Below, piece by piece: positions 22,044 through 42,533 of a stretch of 64,000 bases of DNA (its first letter is position 1; each line of letters opens with the position of its first letter). This DNA is from Betaproteobacteria bacterium (GTDB taxonomy: Bacteria > Pseudomonadota > Gammaproteobacteria > Burkholderiales > Rhodocyclaceae): the NCBI GenBank assembly GCA_020621405.1, contig JAHRYN010000001.1:821883-885882 (forward strand), written 5' to 3'. The notes below the pieces were generated by a model. It was given only the letters and a program-made list of their open reading frames with translations. It made no database searches and was not told the origin of the DNA. Position numbers and translations under genes: made by a program.

Positions 22044-22838
22044 CTAAAGACGCGTCCTCTCTCCAAGAGACTTCGTCAGGAACTCTTCGTAAGTCGAGAA
22101 CACTCCATGGCCCTTGCTGGTGTTTACCTTGCCAAGGATTGTCTTGCTAATCCTCTGCTGCAGATATTCACTTACCTCGTCGAACTTGGCTGACGACAGC
22201 AATTTCCAGGGTGCCTTGTAGCGACTTTCGACGTTCGTTGAGATGACTCCGTAGTTGAACTTGGTTGCGCGCGTCTTGTCCACGCTTGCGAACTCGTTGT
22301 ACCGCTTGATCAAATACTGCACATAGCGGCTCTGCTGCTGATCCGCGCCAATGGTCCCTGGTGGCGGATTTACGGCGACGCGGCGCCGAGCCGTCCTGAC
22401 GTTAACCGTGTGCGCTTGGATCGCGCCGGGGCTGTTGATCGCAATATTTCCGGCGTTGTCGGTGATCTCTATGTGTTGCAGATCGTTCAGTAGCATCTTC
22501 GCGATAACGCCGTCGGTCGCCCGCTCCGGACGCCCTGCCGCACTCTCGTGCACCGATTTCATCTCCTGCAGAACGTCGACCGAGTAGATATCAATTTGCG
22601 AATCGATGACCTTGTGGTGCGCTCGGCACAGCAAGACGAGATTATCGAAGCCATTTCGCTCAGTATCGGACTGAGCTGAGTCGTAGCGCGGGCCGCCGGT
22701 GCTACGGGCGCGAATGTGGCAGATCTCGCCAGTTACAGTACCGGCACTCTCGATGATCGGAAGCTGACATCCGGGAAACCCACAAAGGTTTCCGGATAGC
22801 GCGAACAGCCGCTTGATCGTCCTCTCTGTCGGTTGCAC
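22044..22838 (-). CDS. HNH endonuclease domain protein next to Wadjet
   Basis: 264 residues from GTG 22838 (GGAG eight bases upstream). Residues ~17-80 form an HNH nuclease: Cys19, Cys24, 'GEICHIRARSTGGPRYD' with His41, Asn66, and 'LLCRAHHKVID' with Cys71 and His75. A beta-rich linker follows ('ITDNAGNIAINSPGAI'). The C-terminal ~90 residues ('SRYKAPWKLLSSAKFDEVSE') resemble the ORF6C/KilA-C-like helical modules of phage and defence proteins. The gene lies only 33 bp after jetD on the same strand, so it is likely co-transcribed with Wadjet. It may add a second nuclease activity, or may be an independent defence gene. The exact target is unknown. Confidence 0.75.
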   Translation of the reverse strand: MQPTERTIKRLFALSGNLCGFPGCQLPIIESAGTVTGEICHIRARSTGGPRYDSAQSDTERNGFDNLVLLCRAHHKVIDSQIDIYSVDVLQEMKSVHESAAGRPERATDGVIAKMLLNDLQHIEITDNAGNIAINSPGAIQAHTVNVRTARRRVAVNPPPGTIGADQQQSRYVQYLIKRYNEFASVDKTRATKFNYGVISTNVESRYKAPWKLLSSAKFDEVSEYLQQRISKTILGKVNTSKGHGVFSTYEEFLTKSLGERTRL

Positions 22839-22871: not shown

Positions 22872-24080
22872 CTAGCGCCCCGGCCATGCTGCCTGCAACG
22901 ATTCCTGCTCAACGGCCACCTTGTTTTCAGTGACCCAGTGGCAAGCGCCCTCCCACACGCGACGTACACATATTCTTTCGATCACGGATAGCTCCACATC
23001 CGTGAGGGGGCGCCGTGCTGTGACAGTATCGGTTCCAAGTGTTTCCGGGGACATCCCGTGCAGTTCGAGGCGCCGCCCTGTGTCATCGACGCAACCCGCC
23101 AAATGATCTGCGATACGAAACCCACCCGCATCGATGTCTCCCCAATGAAATACCCGGGCGTCGCGCGGAAGAGACAAGAGCAGGAGGCGGTACACACGCT
23201 TCCATGAAGGACTCGGCATGCCGCCGGTGTAGAGCAGAATTGTGCCGGGAGCTTCGTGACGTCTCGCGACCATTTCATGAAATGTCGTGAGGTTCTCGAC
23301 GGTCAGAAGTGCGACGACCGCAGGCGCGCAAGAAAATCCAGCTATTGCCGAAGGCGGAAAGCCCAGGTATGCAGAATCCACCGCAATGTTGCGGCCATCA
23401 ATGGCCACCTGAATCGCTCCAGCGATGAGTAAGGTCGGCGGAAACTTCACGAGCCCGATCTCGTTAAAGACGTCTTCCGGATCGCGTGCCGGAGCAGCGA
23501 CATCGCCTTGTACCAAAACATCGATGATCGCGGCCAAATGTTCAATTCGCTTACTGTCGCCGGTTAACCGAGCGCTCAATCGTCGGACGGGCACATCAGC
23601 AGCGACCTGCAGCCGGCAGTGTGCGACAACCTTTACCGCGTCATCCCAAGCGCCGACATCTTCAGGGCCGGTGCCACGCACTTTTGCGCCGCTGCCCCAA
23701 TGCTCGATTACCTTTGCCAACACCGGATATTCTGCGTTCCAGCGTGCGAACCGTTCTGCCGCACGAGAAACAGCCTCCCACCTCGGGACAACGCCCAACA
23801 AGCGGGCAAGCGCCCCCCTGTCCGCCAACCCGATTCTGTGGATCTGACTCTTCTCTCCCGCGCGACGATCCCACTCAATGGTGATCGCCCCTTCACGTTC
23901 GGCAAGCAATAGCTCCCCGTGACAAGATTCCTTCTCCGCGTGCGTCTCAATGCTCGCATAGGCAGGCATCGATTCCCGCGAGAACCGCAAAGCAAGCTTG
24001 CGCTCTCCCTCCTCCCGTCCATAGGCGTTCTCTGCCCTACGCAAGAGCTTTTGCAATGCCTCGTTCGCCACTGAACTCAT
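22872..24080 (-). CDS. jetD: Wadjet subunit JetD (Toprim nuclease)
   Basis: 402 residues. The C-terminal half carries a Toprim (topoisomerase VI-like) domain. The acidic residue sits in 'LLTVENLTTFHEM' (Glu262) and the DxD pair in 'FHWGDIDAGGFRI' (Asp315 and Asp317). The N-terminal ~200 residues fit the DUF3322-type region that contacts the SMC core. JetD is the nuclease that cuts closed circular DNA, mainly plasmids, after loop extrusion by JetABC. Its ATG overlaps the jetC stop by four bases. All expected catalytic residues are present, so the subunit looks functional. Confidence 0.9.
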   Translation of the reverse strand: MSSVANEALQKLLRRAENAYGREEGERKLALRFSRESMPAYASIETHAEKESCHGELLLAEREGAITIEWDRRAGEKSQIHRIGLADRGALARLLGVVPRWEAVSRAAERFARWNAEYPVLAKVIEHWGSGAKVRGTGPEDVGAWDDAVKVVAHCRLQVAADVPVRRLSARLTGDSKRIEHLAAIIDVLVQGDVAAPARDPEDVFNEIGLVKFPPTLLIAGAIQVAIDGRNIAVDSAYLGFPPSAIAGFSCAPAVVALLTVENLTTFHEMVARRHEAPGTILLYTGGMPSPSWKRVYRLLLLSLPRDARVFHWGDIDAGGFRIADHLAGCVDDTGRRLELHGMSPETLGTDTVTARRPLTDVELSVIERICVRRVWEGACHWVTENKVAVEQESLQAAWPGR

Positions 24081-27000
24081 GCGGCACTGCCAAACTTCTC
24101 GGCCATTTTCGCGACCAGCTGCGGGTTGCGACTGGGCATGTCGGTTTCCAGGAGCCGTCTGGCGTCCTCTTTGACGATCACCTCGGTGGTAAATACATCC
24201 GAGCCAAACCGATCGAGGTCGTAGTAGGAATCGAGAACAGGGATTAGCTTTCCGACGTCTGCATCGGGCGCAGCCATCACCAGCTGAAGTCCCAGTGAAC
24301 GCAGGAACTGCGCGGTAACGTAGGCATTCTGTGCATCGAACCCGTGAAATGCCTCGTCAATGATCATGACAGCGGCACCTTCATGCGTATCCCCTGACTT
24401 CAAGCGATACGCATTTGCGAGGGATGCACCGGCGATGACGTAAAACGGCACCAGATGCTCACCGTTTGACCCGACCCCTAGCCGTTTGCTCAGTGAATCC
24501 ACCTTCTTGTCGCCGACCCGGATCTCCAAGTCAAAATTGAACAAGAGCCGATAGTCCTCAAGCGGATTGTTCGCTTTATCCAATCCGGTTTCGCAGGCTT
24601 CGAGGAACGCAACCAGCTTTTTCTGTACATCATCCGCTGCCTCAAACAGGGGGGAAGATCCCGTCTCAAGAAACGCACTGCTCTGGATCAGGTCATAGAG
24701 AGGTTTGTGAGCAAGTGCGGGAGTTGCGACAAACCGGTATTTTTCGCCGCCCGTAAACTCCGGGCAGGAACGGAGAATTCTGTTTAGATCATCAATGTCG
24801 TGCTCTACCCGCTTGATCGCTTCGCGCATGCGGTACGCCACGTCAGCCCGGAAGGATTGATTGGCGGCTTCACGCGCCTGCGACGCCTCCTGCTCGTACT
24901 GGACAAGTGTGGAAGCCGTAAGCTTTCCAATGTGCGACTTGACCCAGGCAGCAGCCTTCCGCCAGTCGCTGCGCTCCTCCACCAGGCTGATCGACATTTC
25001 ATTGATGAACGCGCTGAAATCGGCCTTCGCCGCTGCCTCCGCATTCACGATGCGAACATTGGCGTTCTTGACTTCGCTATCGAGGTAAATCACGGCAGCT
25101 GCGGGTCCTTCGCCTTCGTTAATGCGCAGGGCCTTGTCGTAGGTTGCGGCTGCAGTCTCCACGTCATAGTCGACGTCGGTGATTGACGCATCGTAGTCCG
25201 CCTGCAGCTTCGACAACATACTCTGGGCGGCCTGAAGACTGGTTCTGGTCCCATTGAGGACACCCGTTTTCGTGCCTCGCGCCTCGCTGAGTTCGCGCAG
25301 CGCCTGTTCTGCTGCTTTGGCAGCACGATCGGCCTCATCCACGCGCCGCTGAAGATCGCGAAGATGCGCCGGCAGATCCAGTTGCGCTGGATCGACCGTT
25401 CCATCCAGCGACCGTTGAGCCACGTGTAGTTCGGAGAACGCCAACTGAATTTGATCCGGCGTAACCTCCCGCAGGACCCTGGTCACACGATCAAGTGCGT
25501 CCGTGGTGATCTGAAGTCGTTCCCGAGCCTCCTTGTCCGTGCGCGTAGCATCTAGAACCTCCGCTCGAAGTGCCTGACGCTCCTCGTTGGAGACCTCAGC
25601 ACCGAGTACCCAATCGGCAGACTGGATGAGCCTGAGTCTTCTCGTACCCCCATTCGCACTGAGCATTCCGTCCCGGGTCAGTGCGCGCTCGTGACGTTCA
25701 AGTTCCTCTTCGGTATCCACTTGTCGCATTTGCCCCAACAGGCGACGAAGATACGTGAGCGCAATACCGTTCGAGCTGTCCAGCAACGATGCCACTGCTG
25801 TTTTGTCGTAGCTGCGGCCCATGTCGTTCCGGATGTGCGCGGGCTGGACGACGGTCACCTCATACAAAGGACGCTGAGCTTTGCGCAGAATTCTGACGGC
25901 ATCCCTTTCACGTCCATACCCAACCACGAGGGCATGGCGATTCCGCCCGAGAAACGATTCGATGGCACCTTGCCACGCCATATCCTTTACTTTGACCAGG
26001 CTTCCGACGGTCCGACTCTCGATCCCTTCCGCCCTGAACATTGCCATTGCCGCGGCAACGTCGCCGGAGTCCTGCAACCGTATGCCTTTGTCGGCCGCCC
26101 TGACACGTTCCGTGGCACTGGTGAGCCGCGTCGCTGCCGCTGTAGCCGCTTCTTCGTGCTGAATCCGCAGAGTCTGAAGTGCTCCTGCAACACGCTTTAG
26201 CGCCGATAAAGCTTCCGGAAACGCGTCCAGGTCAGGGCAATCTCCCGACTTCGCACGCGCTTCCCACTTCGCCGCCAGACGTTCCAGTTCCTGGGATGTG
26301 CCGTCGTCCGGCTCTCGATTCGCCGCATGCACAATTCCGAGTGCCTCCCGAACATCCATAGCCATACGGTCGACTGCGCGCCGTGCATTGCCAACGTTTG
26401 TCTGCCATGCCGCACGCAATTGGCGCGCATACTCAGGATTTTGCGATGCGGGATCGGAATTGTAGGCGGCGAGCAGATTTTGATGATTGGCGCGAAGACC
26501 TTCCTGCTCTTGAGTACGGGCTTCTATGGCAGCGTTGAGGTCGTTGATCTGACCCGAGAGTTCCTGTTCTTTGGACGACAGATTGTCGACTTCCAAGTCT
26601 GCGGACTCGACTTGAAGTAGCAACCTGACTGCCGTCGAAACGGCTCGCGTACGGTATTGCGTTGCCACGCTGTTGAAGCGCCGGTCGATGTCAGTCAGGC
26701 GTGCAATCTGCTGCTTGACTTCCTCAATTTGGCGCACGAGCGCGCGAACGGTCTTGATGTGTTTCAGGGTGCCTTGTTTGTCGATGGGTTGGGCATCGAC
26801 AAGATATCCGCGAAGATAGTCGTTAACGCTCTGGATTCCCTTGAGGCGCAGGCTCTGTGCCAACGCACGCAGGAACTTGTCCCTGTCGATGGTGCGCCCC
26901 TTGTGCTGGAGCACATGAAGAAGTTCGTTTAGATAGGTCTCCGGCTTGGCAGTAAGAGTCGGTGTACGACCAGCCTGCTTCGCGAGCCTGCGCGCCAATG

Positions 27001-27490
27001 CATCAAATGTGGGCCAATCCAGAGGTGCTTTCCCGCCTTCATCGAGGGCACCGAGATGATCCTCCAACGTCAGCCGAACGCCGGGAAGAATGTACAAACC
27101 GAGCGTACGATGATTCTTTTCCGTGGCGATCGAGTGCAGGCACACGCCTGCGCTCACCACATCCCCCTGCGATTCGCCCTCGAATACGAGACTGATGTAG
27201 GAAATTGCCTCTTCGCGTTTACGAGCGAGAACGCCCTGATCGCCTTCGCCGGAACGCATGGTCCCGAGCGCATAGTCCCTGACGGAACGATGGTCCTTGT
27301 GGACCGACTGCGCGTTGAAATGCATGTGGTTGCCATGGGCACCGACGAGTGCGATTTGCACAGCGTCCGCCAGACTGGTCTTGCCAGCCCCGTTGGGACC
27401 AAGGAAAGCAGTTCCCCCTTGTCGCAAGTTGAAGGTTTCGTAGTCCCAGAACGAGAACTGAACCAGGTGCATTGCACTAAGCGTCTTCAC
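24077..27490 (-). CDS. jetC: Wadjet subunit JetC (SMC/MukB-like ATPase)
   Basis: 1137 residues from GTG 27490. I chose it because AGGAGG lies six bases upstream and the protein then begins 'MKTLSAMHLVQFSFWD', a typical SMC N-terminus. A longer frame reaches 27523. Walker A is 'GPNGAGKTS' at ~31-39 and Walker B is 'AAVMIIDEAFHGFDAQN' near residue 1060. Long coiled coils lie between the heads, with a hinge near the middle ('DMAWQGAIESFLGRNRHALV'). It is the motor that extrudes DNA loops with JetA and JetB. The start overlaps jetB by 14 bases and the stop overlaps jetD by four, so all four subunits are translationally coupled. Confidence 0.92.
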   Translation of the reverse strand: MKTLSAMHLVQFSFWDYETFNLRQGGTAFLGPNGAGKTSLADAVQIALVGAHGNHMHFNAQSVHKDHRSVRDYALGTMRSGEGDQGVLARKREEAISYISLVFEGESQGDVVSAGVCLHSIATEKNHRTLGLYILPGVRLTLEDHLGALDEGGKAPLDWPTFDALARRLAKQAGRTPTLTAKPETYLNELLHVLQHKGRTIDRDKFLRALAQSLRLKGIQSVNDYLRGYLVDAQPIDKQGTLKHIKTVRALVRQIEEVKQQIARLTDIDRRFNSVATQYRTRAVSTAVRLLLQVESADLEVDNLSSKEQELSGQINDLNAAIEARTQEQEGLRANHQNLLAAYNSDPASQNPEYARQLRAAWQTNVGNARRAVDRMAMDVREALGIVHAANREPDDGTSQELERLAAKWEARAKSGDCPDLDAFPEALSALKRVAGALQTLRIQHEEAATAAATRLTSATERVRAADKGIRLQDSGDVAAAMAMFRAEGIESRTVGSLVKVKDMAWQGAIESFLGRNRHALVVGYGRERDAVRILRKAQRPLYEVTVVQPAHIRNDMGRSYDKTAVASLLDSSNGIALTYLRRLLGQMRQVDTEEELERHERALTRDGMLSANGGTRRLRLIQSADWVLGAEVSNEERQALRAEVLDATRTDKEARERLQITTDALDRVTRVLREVTPDQIQLAFSELHVAQRSLDGTVDPAQLDLPAHLRDLQRRVDEADRAAKAAEQALRELSEARGTKTGVLNGTRTSLQAAQSMLSKLQADYDASITDVDYDVETAAATYDKALRINEGEGPAAAVIYLDSEVKNANVRIVNAEAAAKADFSAFINEMSISLVEERSDWRKAAAWVKSHIGKLTASTLVQYEQEASQAREAANQSFRADVAYRMREAIKRVEHDIDDLNRILRSCPEFTGGEKYRFVATPALAHKPLYDLIQSSAFLETGSSPLFEAADDVQKKLVAFLEACETGLDKANNPLEDYRLLFNFDLEIRVGDKKVDSLSKRLGVGSNGEHLVPFYVIAGASLANAYRLKSGDTHEGAAVMIIDEAFHGFDAQNAYVTAQFLRSLGLQLVMAAPDADVGKLIPVLDSYYDLDRFGSDVFTTEVIVKEDARRLLETDMPSRNPQLVAKMAEKFGSAA

Positions 27491-28127
27491 GAGCGCCCTC
27501 CTTTTCACTCGCGTTGACGTCACCGGTGGTGACCAATGACGATTTCAGATGGGCACCGAAACGATTGACGGCGTGTTCACTGAGTACCTCGGCGATCGCG
27601 GGAAGAATGGCGATTGCAAACGGTTGCGGGTCATCTTCCGGGGCATCGATCAACCTGGCCAGTCCGCAGCGAGACGCGACCTTCACGAGCCCCTTCAGCA
27701 GACTCTGATTCTTCGTTTCCAGCGTCCGGCCTGTCATTGATCGATATGTGGCGACAAGTTCCTCTATTCCGACGACCGCATCCCCCTCGTCGGAGAGTTC
27801 CCCGGCACTACCGCGCAAGTGAAACAGCTGCCTTAGAACGAGCAGAAAAAGCGTGTCCTGTGTATCGAGCGGCGTGTGCTTTACCACCTCCGGCACGACG
27901 TAGCAAAACTCAAGACGCTCGTTGAATCCGAGGCGCAGCCCCATCAACTCAACTGCCTCTTCGAAATCGCGACGATGGGCCGAGATGATCCGGAAAGCCG
28001 TGCTCTGCTGATTGAAGCGCGAATAGAGACATTGGTGGACGATCAACTGATACAGCGCTTGCTTAAAGTCGTCTACCTCGTAGATGCCATTGGAAGCATC
28101 GGCAAGTGATCTCCAGTTACGCGGCAT
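27477..28127 (-). CDS. jetB: Wadjet subunit JetB (DUF4194, MukE/kite-like)
   Basis: 216 residues. It has winged-helix-like content ('DDFKQALYQLIVHQCLYSRF', 'DFEEAVELMGLRLGFNERLE', 'LDTQDTLFLLVLRQLFHLRG') and a central Glu-rich loop, as in DUF4194 proteins. It corresponds to the kite subunit that bridges JetA and the JetC heads. The ATG at 28127 overlaps the end of jetA by 11 bases and the gene overlaps jetC by 14 bases. The expected size for JetB is about 200 residues, so it looks complete. Confidence 0.88.
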   Translation of the reverse strand: MPRNWRSLADASNGIYEVDDFKQALYQLIVHQCLYSRFNQQSTAFRIISAHRRDFEEAVELMGLRLGFNERLEFCYVVPEVVKHTPLDTQDTLFLLVLRQLFHLRGSAGELSDEGDAVVGIEELVATYRSMTGRTLETKNQSLLKGLVKVASRCGLARLIDAPEDDPQPFAIAILPAIAEVLSEHAVNRFGAHLKSSLVTTGDVNASEKEGAREDA

Positions 28128-29553
28128 CTGACTCCCTCCAACTCACTTCAAAATTGGGAATATTGAAGTACTGTGTATCGACGCGACCTCCCGAAATCAG
28201 GGACACTTCGAATCCAAGCCTGCGCAGTAGTGGATTGCGACGAACTGCCGCCTGATTGCGGCTGCTCATTCCGGCTAATCGCATGAGAACCAGAAACGAA
28301 ACAGCATCCGAGACTGTTCGGATCGGCAGATCCAGCGCGGTGGCCTTGTCACCCTGCGACAGGAATTCACCGATGTAACGCCGCACTGCTGCCGGTGTGG
28401 TGTCTCTGTGCTCGATCATCGCTTTTCTGAGGAAATGAACAGCCTTCTCGTGCGGCGTCATTTCGCGCTTGCGCAATGGCGTACGCTTGGGTGCGGGGGG
28501 CGCCTCGACTGGAAGTCTCAATCGGTTGTCTCCGATCAAGGGGGTGGGCGCGAGCAGTCGCCCTTCCAGGGGAAGTCCCCGAGTGTCAGCCTCAATGACG
28601 GCGCGAACACTGTCGGCAAGCACTTCTTCGATCCGTTCGGACGCCTTTAGCCGATAGCCAAGGTAGGCGACAGCACGCTGTGTCGCGGCGTCCATCACCC
28701 GATCCATTCTTTCGAGAAACTTTTCGACATCGAGGAGGCGCCGGAAACGCTGTACGTCCCGCTCCAGCAATTCTTCTTCTTCTCCCGGCCTGTTGCCAGG
28801 AAGCTCTGCGTAACCTTGCAAAAGTGCGACTCGACCGGGTCCCTCCAATGCTACCGAGTTGACGATTTCGATAATCTCATAGCGCAATCGGAGCGGATGA
28901 TTCTCGGTTCGAAGCTGCTTGAAATCACGGACGTACAACTCGCTGATGTGTTCACTGAAAAATCGTTTTACGAAAACCGGCGTTTCGGTTTCCTGAGTCA
29001 GTTCCTTCATCAGGTCACGGACTCGCAGAGTCGTTGAATTCAATGAGTTGATGAGTCGCACGCAAAGCTGTGCCGCACTGACAAACCCGCCAGCCTGTCC
29101 CTTGGGATCTTGCGCCACGCTCTTCAATTGGTTGTAAACGAGAAGAACGTTTCCCCCAAAGAGCTGCGGCCCCTCCGTGACGAACTGCTGAACGGTGTCA
29201 AAGAATCTGGCGACCGAAGGTCGCATGCTGACGAATCGGCGCAGCCCCACCTTCTCTTCAGTGAGCCATCCGGTTTCCACCAGCCGTGCGAGTAGCTGAT
29301 TCGCCTGAATCGATATCGGCGTAGCCACCGCCGGCACGTCGCCGTCCCCCTCGTCCTCCCATCCCGCGTCAAGAAGAAAGCGTTCGATTTCCTTCACGAC
29401 CTGGTCATGAAGGTAGCCGTCGGGGTACGGCGGCACCGAATCCGGACCAAAGTAGCGATCAAAGAGCCGCACGAGCAAATCCCACGCGCGGCGGTTGTTT
29501 CGCCCGGTCAGCGCACCGAAGAGCCCTTGAGGTATCCGATCGAAGAGATTCAT
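28117..29553 (-). CDS. jetA: Wadjet subunit JetA (MukF/kleisin-like)
   Basis: 478 residues beginning 'MNLFDRIPQGLFGALTGRNN'. It is a helical protein with a kleisin-like layout: an N-terminal winged-helix region ('YLHDQVVKEIERFLLDAG', then 'LLARLVETGWLTEEKVGLRR'), a long middle helix set, and a C-terminal winged helix ('AVRRNPLLRRLGFEVSLISG'). First gene of jetABCD. Promoter and operators lie in 29571-29628. The start ATG at 29553 has a weak ribosome site. The Wadjet subtype cannot be fixed by eye. Confidence 0.86.
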   Translation of the reverse strand: MNLFDRIPQGLFGALTGRNNRRAWDLLVRLFDRYFGPDSVPPYPDGYLHDQVVKEIERFLLDAGWEDEGDGDVPAVATPISIQANQLLARLVETGWLTEEKVGLRRFVSMRPSVARFFDTVQQFVTEGPQLFGGNVLLVYNQLKSVAQDPKGQAGGFVSAAQLCVRLINSLNSTTLRVRDLMKELTQETETPVFVKRFFSEHISELYVRDFKQLRTENHPLRLRYEIIEIVNSVALEGPGRVALLQGYAELPGNRPGEEEELLERDVQRFRRLLDVEKFLERMDRVMDAATQRAVAYLGYRLKASERIEEVLADSVRAVIEADTRGLPLEGRLLAPTPLIGDNRLRLPVEAPPAPKRTPLRKREMTPHEKAVHFLRKAMIEHRDTTPAAVRRYIGEFLSQGDKATALDLPIRTVSDAVSFLVLMRLAGMSSRNQAAVRRNPLLRRLGFEVSLISGGRVDTQYFNIPNFEVSWRESDAA

Positions 29554-29570
29554 TTCATTGTTAGCCTTTC

Positions 29571-29628
29571 GGATAATTTATACTCTACACTAATTTATAT
29601 TGCAAGCTAAATTATCCTGTAGGATAAT
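29571..29628. promoter_or_regulatory. Divergent jetA/WYL promoters sharing one -35, with dyad operators
   Basis: The hexamer TTGCAA at 29600-29605 is its own reverse complement. On the plus strand it lies 17 bp before GATAAT (29623-29628). On the minus strand it lies 17 bp before TATAAA (29582-29577). Two near-consensus promoters therefore point away from one shared -35. Each -10 is embedded in an operator-like element: ATTATCCtgtaGGATAAT, a perfect 7-bp dyad at 29611-29628, and GGATAATTTA (29571-29580), which mirrors TAAATTATCC (29608-29617). The WYL regulator encoded at 29635 is the obvious ligand. Confidence 0.72.
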
Positions 29629-29634
29629 GCCCCA

Positions 29635-30456
29635 ATGGATTCCGCCACAGAAAGACTGTCTGACCTTGAAACCGTCCTCCTTTGGGAGGGCGAGATCGAC
29701 AACTTCCGTATACGGGAACTGTTGGGAGTGCAGGCCGTCTGGGCCAGCCGCCTGATGGGCGCCCTGCGGACACACATGGGCGTGCGCGCAGCTCGTTCAA
29801 CGGCTCATGCGCCCCTGCGCCTCGCGCCTGGGCAGCCGGAACGCGAACGTAGGCAGTCGCCGGACGACTATCTGCGCATTGCTTCCCGAGCACCCGCCAC
29901 AGCGGATCGTGAGCCGATGCTGGAAGATGCGCGGCGCGATCTTTCAGTAGTGGCGCCCGAGACATTCGCCGCCGTAGTGCAGGCCATGCGCAAGGGAATC
30001 GGACTGCAGCTCACCTACCGGTCGATGAATCACCCAGCCGGCACCGAACGCATTGTGTTTCCGCACGCCTTGGTTCGTGTCCCACGGCGTTGGCACATGC
30101 GCGCCTGGTGTACGGAGAGGCATGATTTCCGCGATTTCACCTTGGGTCGTGTCGGAAAAGTCGCGCTTGTCGAATCGACCGCGCCCCACCGGCGATCAGA
30201 CGACAAGGATTGGAACGAGGTTGTTACTCTCACCGTGGTTGCTCACCCGGACCTCACGGCCGATCAGCAGTCCATGATCGCTGCAGAGTACTTTCCGGGC
30301 GCTAGCGCCCGGCAGTTGAAAGTGCGTCGATGTCTTGCGAGCTACATCATCCAGGATTTGCGACTGGCAACCAACGCTGACAAACACAAGCCACCAGAGT
30401 ATCAATTGCTCGTCAGTAACGCCGACAAACTCGGCAGGGCCATCTGGGCTGAATAG
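29635..30456 (+). CDS. WYL-domain transcriptional regulator (BrxR/CapW-like)
   Basis: 273 residues. An N-terminal winged helix (~1-50, 'LETVLLWEGEIDNFRIRELL') is followed by a WYL domain ('GIGLQLTYRSMNHP', 'RRWHMRAWCTERHDFRDFTL') and a C-terminal WCX-like extension. The RWHxRAxCxxRxxFRDF pattern is that of BrxR/CapW, repressors that control defence islands and are thought to sense nucleic-acid signals of infection or damage. The gene diverges from jetA. The predicted -10 (29623-29628) puts the transcription start at about the ATG, so the mRNA may be leaderless. Most likely a repressor of Wadjet and of itself. Confidence 0.82.
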   Translation: MDSATERLSDLETVLLWEGEIDNFRIRELLGVQAVWASRLMGALRTHMGVRAARSTAHAPLRLAPGQPERERRQSPDDYLRIASRAPATADREPMLEDARRDLSVVAPETFAAVVQAMRKGIGLQLTYRSMNHPAGTERIVFPHALVRVPRRWHMRAWCTERHDFRDFTLGRVGKVALVESTAPHRRSDDKDWNEVVTLTVVAHPDLTADQQSMIAAEYFPGASARQLKVRRCLASYIIQDLRLATNADKHKPPEYQLLVSNADKLGRAIWAE

Positions 30457-30485
30457 CAGCACCCACCCTCCGCCGTACGTCACCA

Positions 30486-31892
30486 ATGCTTTCTTTTGTC
30501 ACCCCTGCCCCGCGGCTTCCCGAAATTGCTGATGTCGTGGAGGAAGGGTTTGTGGAGGAGATCAGGGACGACACCACCGGTGACGTCCACAAGTCGGCGG
30601 ATTTTCTTCGGCGGGAGCTTAGAGAACTCAACCGCTTTCGCGGAGAGCAGGAAGATTTGCTGGCTGCCGGCAAGCCGCGGTTCCGATGCGCTCATTGCGA
30701 AGTCGGGGTAGCTCTCCGCTTGTCTGCTCTCCGGCGATGGTATTTTCGGCATGATGAGGAAGATGGTTCGTGCAGATACCAGAGCAAAGGATTCCTGTCA
30801 CAAGACGATTTTGATGCAAGGCGCTACAACGGCCAGAAGGAAGGACCGCAACACATTCGAATGAAACGTCTCATCCGAGAGAGCCTGACGCGAGACGGCA
30901 CTTTCGATAAGCAGTCGATCCTCGAGGAGGTTCGTTGGCGCGGCAAGGTCACGCCAGGTAGCTGGAAAATTCCTGATGTACAGGCGATGCGTAACGGACT
31001 GCGGATTGCATTCGAGATCCAATTGTCATCGACCTACGTCAATGTCATGCGGCAGCGCCGGTCGTTCTATCTCGCGGAGGGTGGTCTGCTCTTCTGGGTG
31101 TTGACGCGGGTGCGCGAAGAAGATAGGCGACAGTTTCAGGACGACGTTCTTTACCCGAACAATTGCAACGTATTCGCGATAGACGAGGAAACCGTTGCGT
31201 TGTCAGCGGAGAATGCAGAACTCACGTTTCGATGTGGTTATCTCGAACCGGTGCGGGATGGATGGACTCTCAAGGAACGCTGGTGCGAACGGATCGTCAG
31301 ATTCTCTGAGCTCACGCTTGATCCGGTCAATCAACGTGTCTATTACTTCGACTATGACAATGCGCGGTCCGAGATCGAACGAGCGCTGCGGACAATTGAT
31401 GGTAGATGCATCCTCGATGAATTCGAGTCCCTGTTGCGATGTAGAGCCAACCAAGACGGAAATGTGCTGGACAAATGGCGAACATTGAAGCGCTCTCTTC
31501 CGGACGCGTTCACCTGGCCGCTCGATCTGTATGGCGGAGGCTTTTTCACTGCAGTGGACATATACCTCTCCGCGCGCTCGGGGCGCCCGGTCGGATGGAA
31601 TTATCAAAGCCTGATCCAGACCGCACATCGCTGCATGGATATCCGCCCAGATTTTCTGCCTCTACTCGAAGCCTGCTTCAGCACCTTCGGGCGCAGCAGC
31701 ATCTTTACCGACGAACGCTATGCCGCAAAGTGGCGCGCAAAACGTGCGAAAGCGGTAGTTGATGCAACTGCTAAATCTGATACCAGGACCCACCTGCTTC
31801 GGCTTCGCCAATATCGGCCGGCCATGGAATGGCTAATGCCCGAGGTCAAGCACGCAATTGCAGCTACTCTGGCGCAACTTGATCCGCGCTAG
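30486..31892 (+). CDS. CoiA/DUF6035-like putative nuclease
   Basis: 468 residues. A zinc-ribbon-like part 'RFRCAHCEVGVALR' with 'RRWYFRHDEEDGSCRYQSKG' at ~65-100 precedes a restriction-endonuclease-like core: 'GPQHIRMKRLIRES' (~120), then 'WKIPDVQAMRNGLRIAFEIQ' (~160). The latter supplies the D...ExQ active-site pattern of the CoiA/DUF6035 PD-(D/E)XK relatives. The C-terminal half is unassigned. It begins 29 bp after the WYL gene on the same strand, so it is probably co-transcribed from the WYL promoter. Related proteins occur in competence and in defence islands; the role here is likely defence but unproven. Confidence 0.6.
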   Translation: MLSFVTPAPRLPEIADVVEEGFVEEIRDDTTGDVHKSADFLRRELRELNRFRGEQEDLLAAGKPRFRCAHCEVGVALRLSALRRWYFRHDEEDGSCRYQSKGFLSQDDFDARRYNGQKEGPQHIRMKRLIRESLTRDGTFDKQSILEEVRWRGKVTPGSWKIPDVQAMRNGLRIAFEIQLSSTYVNVMRQRRSFYLAEGGLLFWVLTRVREEDRRQFQDDVLYPNNCNVFAIDEETVALSAENAELTFRCGYLEPVRDGWTLKERWCERIVRFSELTLDPVNQRVYYFDYDNARSEIERALRTIDGRCILDEFESLLRCRANQDGNVLDKWRTLKRSLPDAFTWPLDLYGGGFFTAVDIYLSARSGRPVGWNYQSLIQTAHRCMDIRPDFLPLLEACFSTFGRSSIFTDERYAAKWRAKRAKAVVDATAKSDTRTHLLRLRQYRPAMEWLMPEVKHAIAATLAQLDPR

Positions 31893-33472: not shown

Positions 33473-33515
33473 TTCAGGAAACTCCTCGTGATGGCCTCAT
33501 GGTAGCGACATTGCC

Positions 33516-33761
33516 GAGTACTGTCCGGGCGCCAGCGCGCGACAGTTGAAGGTGCGTCGATGTCTTGCGAACTACATCATCCAGGATATACGGCTGGCAA
33601 CCAACGCTGAGAAGCACAAGCCGCCAGAGCAACAATTGCTCGTAAGCAATGCAGAGACGCTTCAGAAATGCCACCCGTGCGGATTAATTGCCACCGGCAA
33701 CCCTTTCAAGTTTGCCCTCTACCGCCTACCTACCCGAACCGTTGGAAACGGCTTGGAATGA
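33516..33761 (+). pseudogene. 3' fragment of a second WYL regulator gene
   Basis: The frame encodes 'GASARQLKVRRCLANYIIQD' and 'HKPPEQQLLVSNAETLQK', nearly identical to the last ~50 residues of the WYL regulator at 29635-30456 ('GASARQLKVRRCLASYIIQD'). At the DNA level about 140 bp match (30286-30425 against 33516-33655) with roughly one difference per eight bases. No start or upstream HTH/WYL coding sequence exists here. After residue ~50 the frame diverges ('CHPCGLIATGNPFKFALY') and stops at 33761. It is a truncated relic, not a working gene. Confidence 0.8.
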
Positions 33762-33876
33762 CAACGTAAATCGTGTCACCCCATCGTTCGAACGAACAGA
33801 CATCGTGCCCTGATGTTCATCAACTATTGCCATTGTCTTTGTAATAGCTAATCCCAATCCGGCCCCATCCGTCTCC
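33706..33876 (-). pseudogene. 3' fragment of a second metal-sensor histidine kinase
   Basis: The minus strand encodes 'ETDGAGLGLAITKTMAIVDE' and 'HQGTMSVRSNDGVTRFTLSF', the end of the kinase ATP-binding domain. It matches the 3' end of the kinase gene at 41145-42533, and the similarity continues into the non-coding sequence after that gene (33706-33745 against 41114-41150). The stop codon of the intact gene is changed here, and homology ends abruptly at 33876. No other part of the gene is present. A relic of a deletion or recombination event. Confidence 0.82.
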
Positions 33877-40975: not shown

Positions 40976-41144
40976 TTTACGTTCACCGTATGTGCGTCTG
41001 GAGAGGTGTGTTCGTGCTAGAGAAACTCACAACTCAGTTAAGAGCACACTCGTCGGTTATCCTCATCGCGGACGCATATTCCGGCCTACCGCACGATGAC
41101 CAAAAACATAATTTTTCAAGATTGCCCGCTACCGCCTACCTACC

Positions 41145-42533
41145 CTAGCCGTTGGAAACAGCCGGGAATGACAACGTAAATCGCGTCACCCCATCGTTCG
41201 AACGAACAGATATCGTGCCCTGATGTGCCTCCACTATTGCCTTTGTGATAGCTAATCCCAATCCGGCCCCATCCGTCTCCGGTCGCACTCTCGCAGGGTC
41301 CGCGCGATAAAAGCGGTCAAAAAGGTATGGGATTGCACTCTCGTCGATATCAGGCCCCGTGTTGTGCACAGATACTTCGACTGCGTCAGGCCGTTCGGAT
41401 AACTCCACACCCAATTCGCCACGTTCAGGAACGTAGCGTAGGGCATTGGAAAGCAGATTGCCCACTGCCCGGCGGAACATCAGTCGATCACCATGAATGC
41501 GACCTTCTCCATGTGAGGTGATCCGGATGTGCTTTTCTTCCGCGACGGGCTCATAGAATTCCAGCAAAGCCTGCACTTCGCGTGAAGCCATAAAACTTTC
41601 TCTGCTTGGAAGATCGACGCCACGCTCGGTCTTGGCGAGAAACAGCATATCGGACACCATCCGCGCAAGGATCTGCAACTCTTCGGCGTTAGAGGCCAGG
41701 ATATCCCGATATGTTTTGGCATCTCGGTTCGAGGACAACGCGACCTGAGTTTGTGTCAACAAATTTGTGAGTGGCGTTCGAAGTTCATGTGCCAGATCTG
41801 CGGAAAAATCTGACAAACGACGAAAATCCTGCTGCAGCCTGTCTAGCATCCGGTTGAGTTCCTTCGCCAGATCCGCCATCTCTACTGGAACAGATTCGAC
41901 TGGCATACGTTCGTTCAGCTTCTGCCCGGAAACAATCGACGCACGATCTCTCATTGAATGCAGCGGTGCGAGTCCAAGGCGAGCAGCAAGCCATGCCAAG
42001 CCTGCACTGCTCAGGGTTGCGACCAAAGCAAATATTGCAAGACTGCGCTTCAAGCTGTCGAGGAACAGACGGTGGTGCTCCGCATTCACAGCCACCATGA
42101 TTCGCATTGATTCTGACGCAGCGTATTTCGGAATCACATCAAAATACAAAATTCTCAAGGATACGGAGTCGCTTGGCCCGGTGTGCCTCATTTCATCTCC
42201 CCTTTCTTTGGATGCCACCGCAATATCCTCGTTAGTGCCGGGAGTGATGTTACGAAATATGGTCTCCCCTCCGGAGTTCCTGATCTGAACATAAAGCCCG
42301 TGATGATGATCCAATGCCTCGTTCAGTCTCCATCGTAAATCGTCCTGCGAATTGGACTTCGAAACAATATCCTGGATGAGGCTACGCTTGTCTTCCATCG
42401 CCAGCTGATCGAGGTCAACAAAGTGACGCTCCGTTGCTACCGTGAACAGCCATCCCAATCCCATAATAAGAATGGCCACCACCAACGTGAAGAAGACAGT
42501 CAGACGCGTTGTAAGAGACTGGCGCAATAGCAT
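41145..42533 (-). CDS. cusS: Heavy-metal sensor histidine kinase (CusS/IrlS type)
   Basis: 462 residues. Two membrane helices (~12-34 and ~165-187) flank a periplasmic sensor domain with several His/Asp/Met residues. A HAMP domain follows, then the H-box 'DFSADLAHELRTPLTNL' (His249), the N-box 'GNLLSNALRYVP' and the G-box 'ETDGAGLGLAITKAIVEAHQ'. This is the CusS/IrlS/CopS family that senses periplasmic Cu+ or Ag+. It follows the response regulator gene with a 3-bp gap. A broken copy of its 3' end lies at 33706-33876. Symbol by similarity to CusS; CopS would serve equally. Confidence 0.88.
   Translation of the reverse strand: MLLRQSLTTRLTVFFTLVVAILIMGLGWLFTVATERHFVDLDQLAMEDKRSLIQDIVSKSNSQDDLRWRLNEALDHHHGLYVQIRNSGGETIFRNITPGTNEDIAVASKERGDEMRHTGPSDSVSLRILYFDVIPKYAASESMRIMVAVNAEHHRLFLDSLKRSLAIFALVATLSSAGLAWLAARLGLAPLHSMRDRASIVSGQKLNERMPVESVPVEMADLAKELNRMLDRLQQDFRRLSDFSADLAHELRTPLTNLLTQTQVALSSNRDAKTYRDILASNAEELQILARMVSDMLFLAKTERGVDLPSRESFMASREVQALLEFYEPVAEEKHIRITSHGEGRIHGDRLMFRRAVGNLLSNALRYVPERGELGVELSERPDAVEVSVHNTGPDIDESAIPYLFDRFYRADPARVRPETDGAGLGLAITKAIVEAHQGTISVRSNDGVTRFTLSFPAVSNG

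Follow-up and report, generated by a model that had tools for sequence, protein, structure and literature searches.

Background

CapW, a homodimeric WYL-family regulator encoded divergently from CBASS operons in Stenotrophomonas, E. coli and Pseudomonas, is described as binding palindromes over the CBASS -10 box and repressing transcription in both directions (PMC9122588). BrxR of the Acinetobacter BREX system is described as binding a 25-bp palindrome over a -35 box (PMC9122589); the centre of this site lies at about -39 (-51 to -27), and the brxR gene heads the operon that it regulates in one direction. Proteins of the CapW/BrxR type are reported to repress until they bind single-stranded DNA (ssDNA) (PMC13373217). 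Picton et al. name Wadjet among the systems that co-localize with BrxR homologues, and the text found describes no promoter or operator for these loci (PMC9122601).

Another WYL protein, DriD of Caulobacter, is described as an activator whose site, ATACGAC-N7-GTCGTAT, has a -35 box at its centre and belongs to a bidirectional promoter (PMC12340889). Loading of RNA polymerase in two orientations, with a regulator gene on one side, is likewise described for Pc/Pr of pLS20 and for bidirectional promoters of E. coli. In the favoured reading of the former, the two promoters overlap crosswise in their -10 and -35 boxes, and the latter share a -10 box. Five bidirectional promoters tested in E. coli fire too rarely at the basal level for polymerases to compete, and competition was reported for strong activation only (PMC12825309). 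Finally, the mRNAs of lambda cI, Tn1721 tetR and acuR are described as leaderless (PMC3017554).

The locus described here recalls each of these systems in part. As with CapW, a gene of the WYL homodimer family lies divergent from a defence operon with a palindromic site in between, but the operon is a Wadjet system and the site, where binding is predicted, is centred on a hexamer at the -35 position instead of overlapping a -10 box. As with BrxR, the palindrome covers a putative -35, but its centre falls on the hexamer itself and the regulator gene is divergent. The position of the -35 at the centre of the site is a likeness to DriD, which differs in being an activator of distant fold. In contrast to the pLS20 and E. 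coli promoters, it would be the -35 that is shared, and, as for cI, tetR and acuR, the regulator would be translated without a leader, which is here predicted from spacing alone.

Results

The window, that is, the whole stretch of 64,000 nucleotides analysed, carries a type I Wadjet system on the minus strand, with jetA (28117..29553), jetB (27477..28127), jetC (24077..27523) and jetD (22872..24080) all present and adjoining one another (best PADLOC models JetA1, JetB1, JetC1 and JetD1, respectively). Divergent from jetA, on the plus strand, lies a gene for a WYL regulator of the BrxR/CapW family (29635..30456, 273 aa). The gap between the two genes measures 81 bp and has a GC content of 32%, compared to 60% for the window, so AT-rich motifs come cheaply in it.

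Several further features of the neighbourhood may be mentioned. An HNH-like gene (22044-22838) adjoins jetD and matches PADLOC models of endonuclease effectors. The gene next after the WYL gene (30486-31892) encodes a protein with DUF6035 and DUF7830 and is also kept in the related locus L034. At 33512-33657 lies what is left of another WYL 3' end (87% DNA identity to 30282-30425), and a direct repeat with 89% identity connects 33704-33876 and 41114-41280. At the start of jetA, a 5-bp duplication (29550-29559) is present in the window, L034 and L035 and absent from L036-L044. It creates a two-codon frame, ATG AAA TGA (minus strand, 29558-29550), which overlaps the jetA ATG and has an AAAGG 6 nt ahead of it.

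By sequence, BrxR and CapW are the best matches of the WYL protein among solved structures, with a profile that extends over nearly the full length, and five BrxR/CapW sequences match over the wHTH, WYL and C-terminal regions (E-values from 1.5e-57 to 3.4e-41). An AlphaFold2 model (45-row alignment, pLDDT 90.2) agrees with this, since in the fold comparison the top 15 chains are all BrxR or CapW (TM to query 0.61-0.82). The best match by TM is BrxR of Acinetobacter (7t8k, 0.82), and the CapW structure 7tb6 is also among the fold matches. Full-length PafBC and DriD reach only 0.28-0.37 (DriD ≤ 0.37), and DriD is not the closest relative by either sequence or fold. On sequence and predicted fold, the regulator belongs with the BrxR/CapW repressors.

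An earlier note on this DNA had proposed that back-to-back promoters share one palindromic -35, TTGCAA, exactly 17 bp from a -10 box on either strand, with operator-like dyads over both -10 boxes. All these elements are found where it placed them: the hexamer TTGCAA, putative common -35 and operator centre, at 29600..29605; the putative -10 of jetABCD, TATAAA (TTTATA on the plus strand), at 29577..29582; and, on the plus strand, GATAAT as the putative WYL -10 at 29623..29628, 6 nt before the ATG at 29635. However, the window sequence alone proves nothing, because a sigma70 scan of 28000-31000 is at chance level, with one site against 0.9 expected in shuffled sequences. This site is the WYL-side promoter on the plus strand; the jetA-side promoter does not pass the scan criteria in this region. 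TTGCAA agrees with the consensus TTGACA at four of six positions and is thus a weak -35. Allowing up to three mismatches in its 18 defined bases, the back-to-back composite matches the genome of 3,797,508 bases at a single place, and the reversed control pattern nowhere. With a single sequence at chance level and an AT-rich gap, evidence from conservation was therefore needed.

Relatives of the locus were collected by scanning genome contigs with a 7-row alignment, and 80 of 100 confirmed loci were kept. A tblastn search with the JetA protein of the window located jetA beside the WYL gene in 64 of the 80, namely 17 divergent loci and 47 co-directional ones, in which the WYL gene comes first and jetA after it; the remaining 16 gave no match. 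One of these 16 is L040, whose jetA was missed by tblastn and found by PADLOC. With it, the number of retrieved regulator relatives that adjoin a jetA rises to at least 65 out of 80, a count that rests on tblastn for all loci but L040. A family-level genome search added further loci, including one new close divergent locus, L142. The close divergent set (WYL identity of at least 51%) then comprises 14 loci, i.e. the window, L034-L045 and L142, with three near-identical copies (window, L034 and L035) among them and about nine independent lineages.

Within this set, TTGCAA-like hexamers with exact 17-bp spacers are kept on both sides. The jetA-side pattern NTTATA-N17-[TC]TG[CA]AA, and with it the putative -10 box of jetABCD, is present in 13 of the 14 loci, and the WYL-side pattern [TC]TG[CA]AA-N17-NATART-N6-ATG, with the putative -10 box of the WYL gene, in 11; TTGCAA itself is exact in 11. 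The spacing of 17, 17 and 6 stays exact across loci while the letters in between drift. In 28,000 shuffled regions, the jetA-side pattern arose nine times, the WYL-side pattern once, and both together never. The comparison of homologous loci called for by the earlier note has thus been made, and at the level of sequence it confirms the observation: one conserved hexamer lies about 17 bp from -10 boxes on both strands, as in divergent promoters that share a -35, and the architecture is conserved in its own clade.

L045 (51% WYL identity) lacks the pattern, and L043 and L044 lack its WYL side. Neither pattern occurs in the 70 more distant loci (8 divergent, 47 co-directional and 15 further ones), so the arrangement is old within one clade and not general. 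In L040 there are two hexamers, CTGCAA and TTGAAA; they lie 17 bp from one another, and both retain a 17-bp spacer of their own.

Some of the relatives deserve a remark in their own right. In L040 (2459-4743), a WYL regulator with 60% identity and a similar promoter region stands next to jetA and jetB genes from another Wadjet subfamily (PADLOC), and an ATG left over near the promoter resembles the usual jetA start. The jetA leader data of this locus are unreliable, as the conserved ATG was used and its frame soon stops, while the PADLOC match starts further in. The near-identical loci L034 and L035 lie on contigs of 5-7 kb from metagenome-assembled genomes labelled Hyphomicrobium and Xanthobacteraceae, and the window's family has loci identical to those of Rhodocyclus and Azonexus; the labels may reflect either mis-binning or transfer. 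On a Synechocystis plasmid (L115, CP101710.1), WYL and jetA genes form a divergent pair that lacks the TTGCAA pattern; jetB is present, and further along come a gene of TniB type and an integrase. A DNA search for the region in plasmids gave no match, and of 45 stretches of viral contigs that fit a pattern none was confirmed as a relative.

The dyads proposed in the earlier note are present, namely ATTATCCtgtaGGATAAT (29611..29628) over the WYL -10 box and GGATAATTTA (29571-29580) with TAAATTATCC (29608-29617), but they are not the chief conserved palindrome. The best conserved of 164 dyad centres is TTGCAA, which had been overlooked as such: the palindrome TAATTTATATTGCAAGCTAAATTA (29591..29614), whose halves complement each other at 10 of 12 positions in the window, is centred on it. 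In 10 ungapped rows it has a mean of 9.83 of 12 pairs, which none of 5,000 column shuffles reach; since the rows were anchored on the hexamer, the hexamer's own conservation lies outside this test and the outer arms lie inside it. Without the six central bases, the outer arms still have 6.96 of 9 pairs, whereas 2.66 would be expected, and here too none of the 5,000 column shuffles does as well. Left out of the 10 aligned rows were L034 and L035 as near-copies of the window, L040 because of its 17-bp length change, L045, which has no such hexamer, and L141 and L143, which are identical to L036 and L038 over 3,598 compared bases; L036, L037 and L142 were down-weighted.

By comparison, the dyad ATTATCCtgtaGGATAAT has 6.33 of 12 pairs (p=0.30, 10 rows) and may be a second, lineage-specific site; ATTATCC-N2-8-GGATAAT has its sole copy in the genome at this locus. 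The jetA-side dyad, a weaker dyad or direct repeat of TAATTTATA over the jetA -10 box (29574..29597) with copies 17 bp apart, has 7.33 of 12 pairs (p=0.019). Conservation rules out the -10 dyads as the main operator, and what had been called a palindromic -35 is, judged by the alignment, the centre of the operator. The consensus operator arm is TAAWTTA, which recurs about every 17 bp. All ten loci in this comparison whose regulator has W as the fourth residue of its recognition-helix motif (VWAS), L040 included, have a palindrome of the TAAWTTA type, and VQAS relatives have other palindromes, a correlation with the recognition helix that was judged by eye. As with BrxR and CapW, and read from the sequence only, the promoter of the neighbouring defence operon contains a palindromic site.

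For the WYL gene, the transcript had been predicted to start at its ATG, giving a leaderless mRNA. In favour of this, all 11 loci that show the pattern have exactly 6 nt, with differing letters, between -10 box and ATG, whereas the corresponding distance on the jetA side ranges from 7 to 23 nt; this difference supports transcription from the WYL ATG and suggests a start at or next to position 29635. On the other hand, 9 of the 11 loci have an AGGA-like run, 9-10 nt ahead of the ATG, that overlaps the WYL -10 box, with duplex energies of -4.0 to -6.5 kcal/mol. The two loci without such a run, L038 (-1.5 kcal/mol) and L040 (none found), have nevertheless kept NATART-N6-ATG. In L043 and L044, where the WYL-side pattern is lost, the jetA -10 box lies 7 nt from the jetA ATG, so the leaderless side may have changed.

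Discussion

Starting from the observed genes, regulator family, conserved hexamer, spacings, palindrome and 6-nt gap, we consider it probable that a type I Wadjet operon and its BrxR/CapW-type regulator are controlled divergently from a compact region, the 81-bp gap between them. The operator would be two-fold symmetric, with TAAWTTA arms around TTGCAA, and its centre would fall exactly where both -35 boxes would be. The mirror-image site is thus probably both the landing place of the regulator and a shared piece of two opposite promoters, with TTGCAA as the putative -35 of each. A regulator dimer straddling the hexamer would deny sigma access in both directions, and for this reason one dimer at one site would repress jetABCD and the regulator's own gene together. 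On the pattern of CapW and BrxR, ssDNA bound to the WYL domain would release the regulator. An mRNA that starts at the ATG would be leaderless and poorly translated, which would keep the autoregulated repressor scarce.

Against this model it must be said that the weak TTGCAA would be kept by a palindromic operator regardless of any role as a -35, and that L045 and all the more distant loci lack the pattern. It is unlikely, but conceivable, that TTGCAA is only an operator centre and that each promoter relies on its -10 box, its -35 contacts being weak or different. The palindrome by itself accounts for the symmetry of TTGCAA, and the spacing might be fixed since a bound regulator must cover both -10 boxes. 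However, 17 bp is the usual sigma70 spacer, it occurs on both sides, and the separated hexamers of L040 each keep it. The AGGA that overlaps the WYL -10 box in most close loci (29621-29624 in the window) could likewise be a ribosome site of an mRNA that starts further upstream. This is a minority possibility in our view, as L038 and L040 do without the run and the scan of 28000-31000 gives no other plus-strand promoter.

With regard to mechanism, activation is the main rival to repression. The site that DriD binds at poor promoters is centred on the -35 (PMC12340889); a similar protein could flank the -35 with its two DNA-binding domains, sandwich sigma domain 4 and recruit polymerase, possibly in either direction. 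The geometry is alike and TTGCAA is weak, but both -10 boxes are good, and by sequence and fold the regulator is of the BrxR/CapW type, whose members are reported repressors, and not a DriD; we regard such activation as quite unlikely. Still less likely is the version in the earlier note, in which repressor dimers occupy the -10 dyads and the switch works mainly by competition of polymerases for the shared -35. The dyads exist, overlapping footprints follow from the geometry, which bars two polymerases at once, and there are known cases of divergent promoters that overlap and have a regulator (PMC4207663), but the WYL-side dyad is unconserved and the E. coli precedent speaks against competition at the basal level (PMC12825309). 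As a working switch, polymerase competition is possible but unsupported. A mere accident of the AT-rich gap would agree with the single-sequence scan; it is hardly credible given the column shuffles and the shuffled regions, and conservation rules it out unless the loci share a much more recent ancestry than their protein sequences indicate.

Repression by a single site that is also a shared -35 remains our preferred reading. Plasmids enter by conjugation as ssDNA. Since CapW and BrxR are reported to answer to ssDNA, the switch would turn on Wadjet at plasmid entry. The complete reading, in which a symmetric element with its operator centre as two -35 boxes, one dimer acting both ways and a leaderless regulator add up to a Wadjet system triggered by ssDNA at plasmid entry, is unlikely to hold in all parts. 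In its boldest form, the dimer would sandwich sigma domain 4 as DriD does and would both repress and activate.

Conclusions

Each part of the arrangement has a precedent. The combination, on a Wadjet system and with the operator centre as a shared -35, was not found in the literature searched; for a shared -35, the open-access papers yielded nothing, which depends on the search terms and is no proof of absence. The control of Wadjet expression is little described, and in the text found by the literature search Wadjet is only named beside BrxR homologues. The frequent neighbourhood of this regulator and jetA (at least 65 of 80 loci) indicates that a dedicated Wadjet regulator may be widespread. 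Should the centre of the operator indeed be the -35 of both promoters, it would be a very economical site for bidirectional repression, and a repressor released by ssDNA would tie an anti-plasmid system to plasmid entry.
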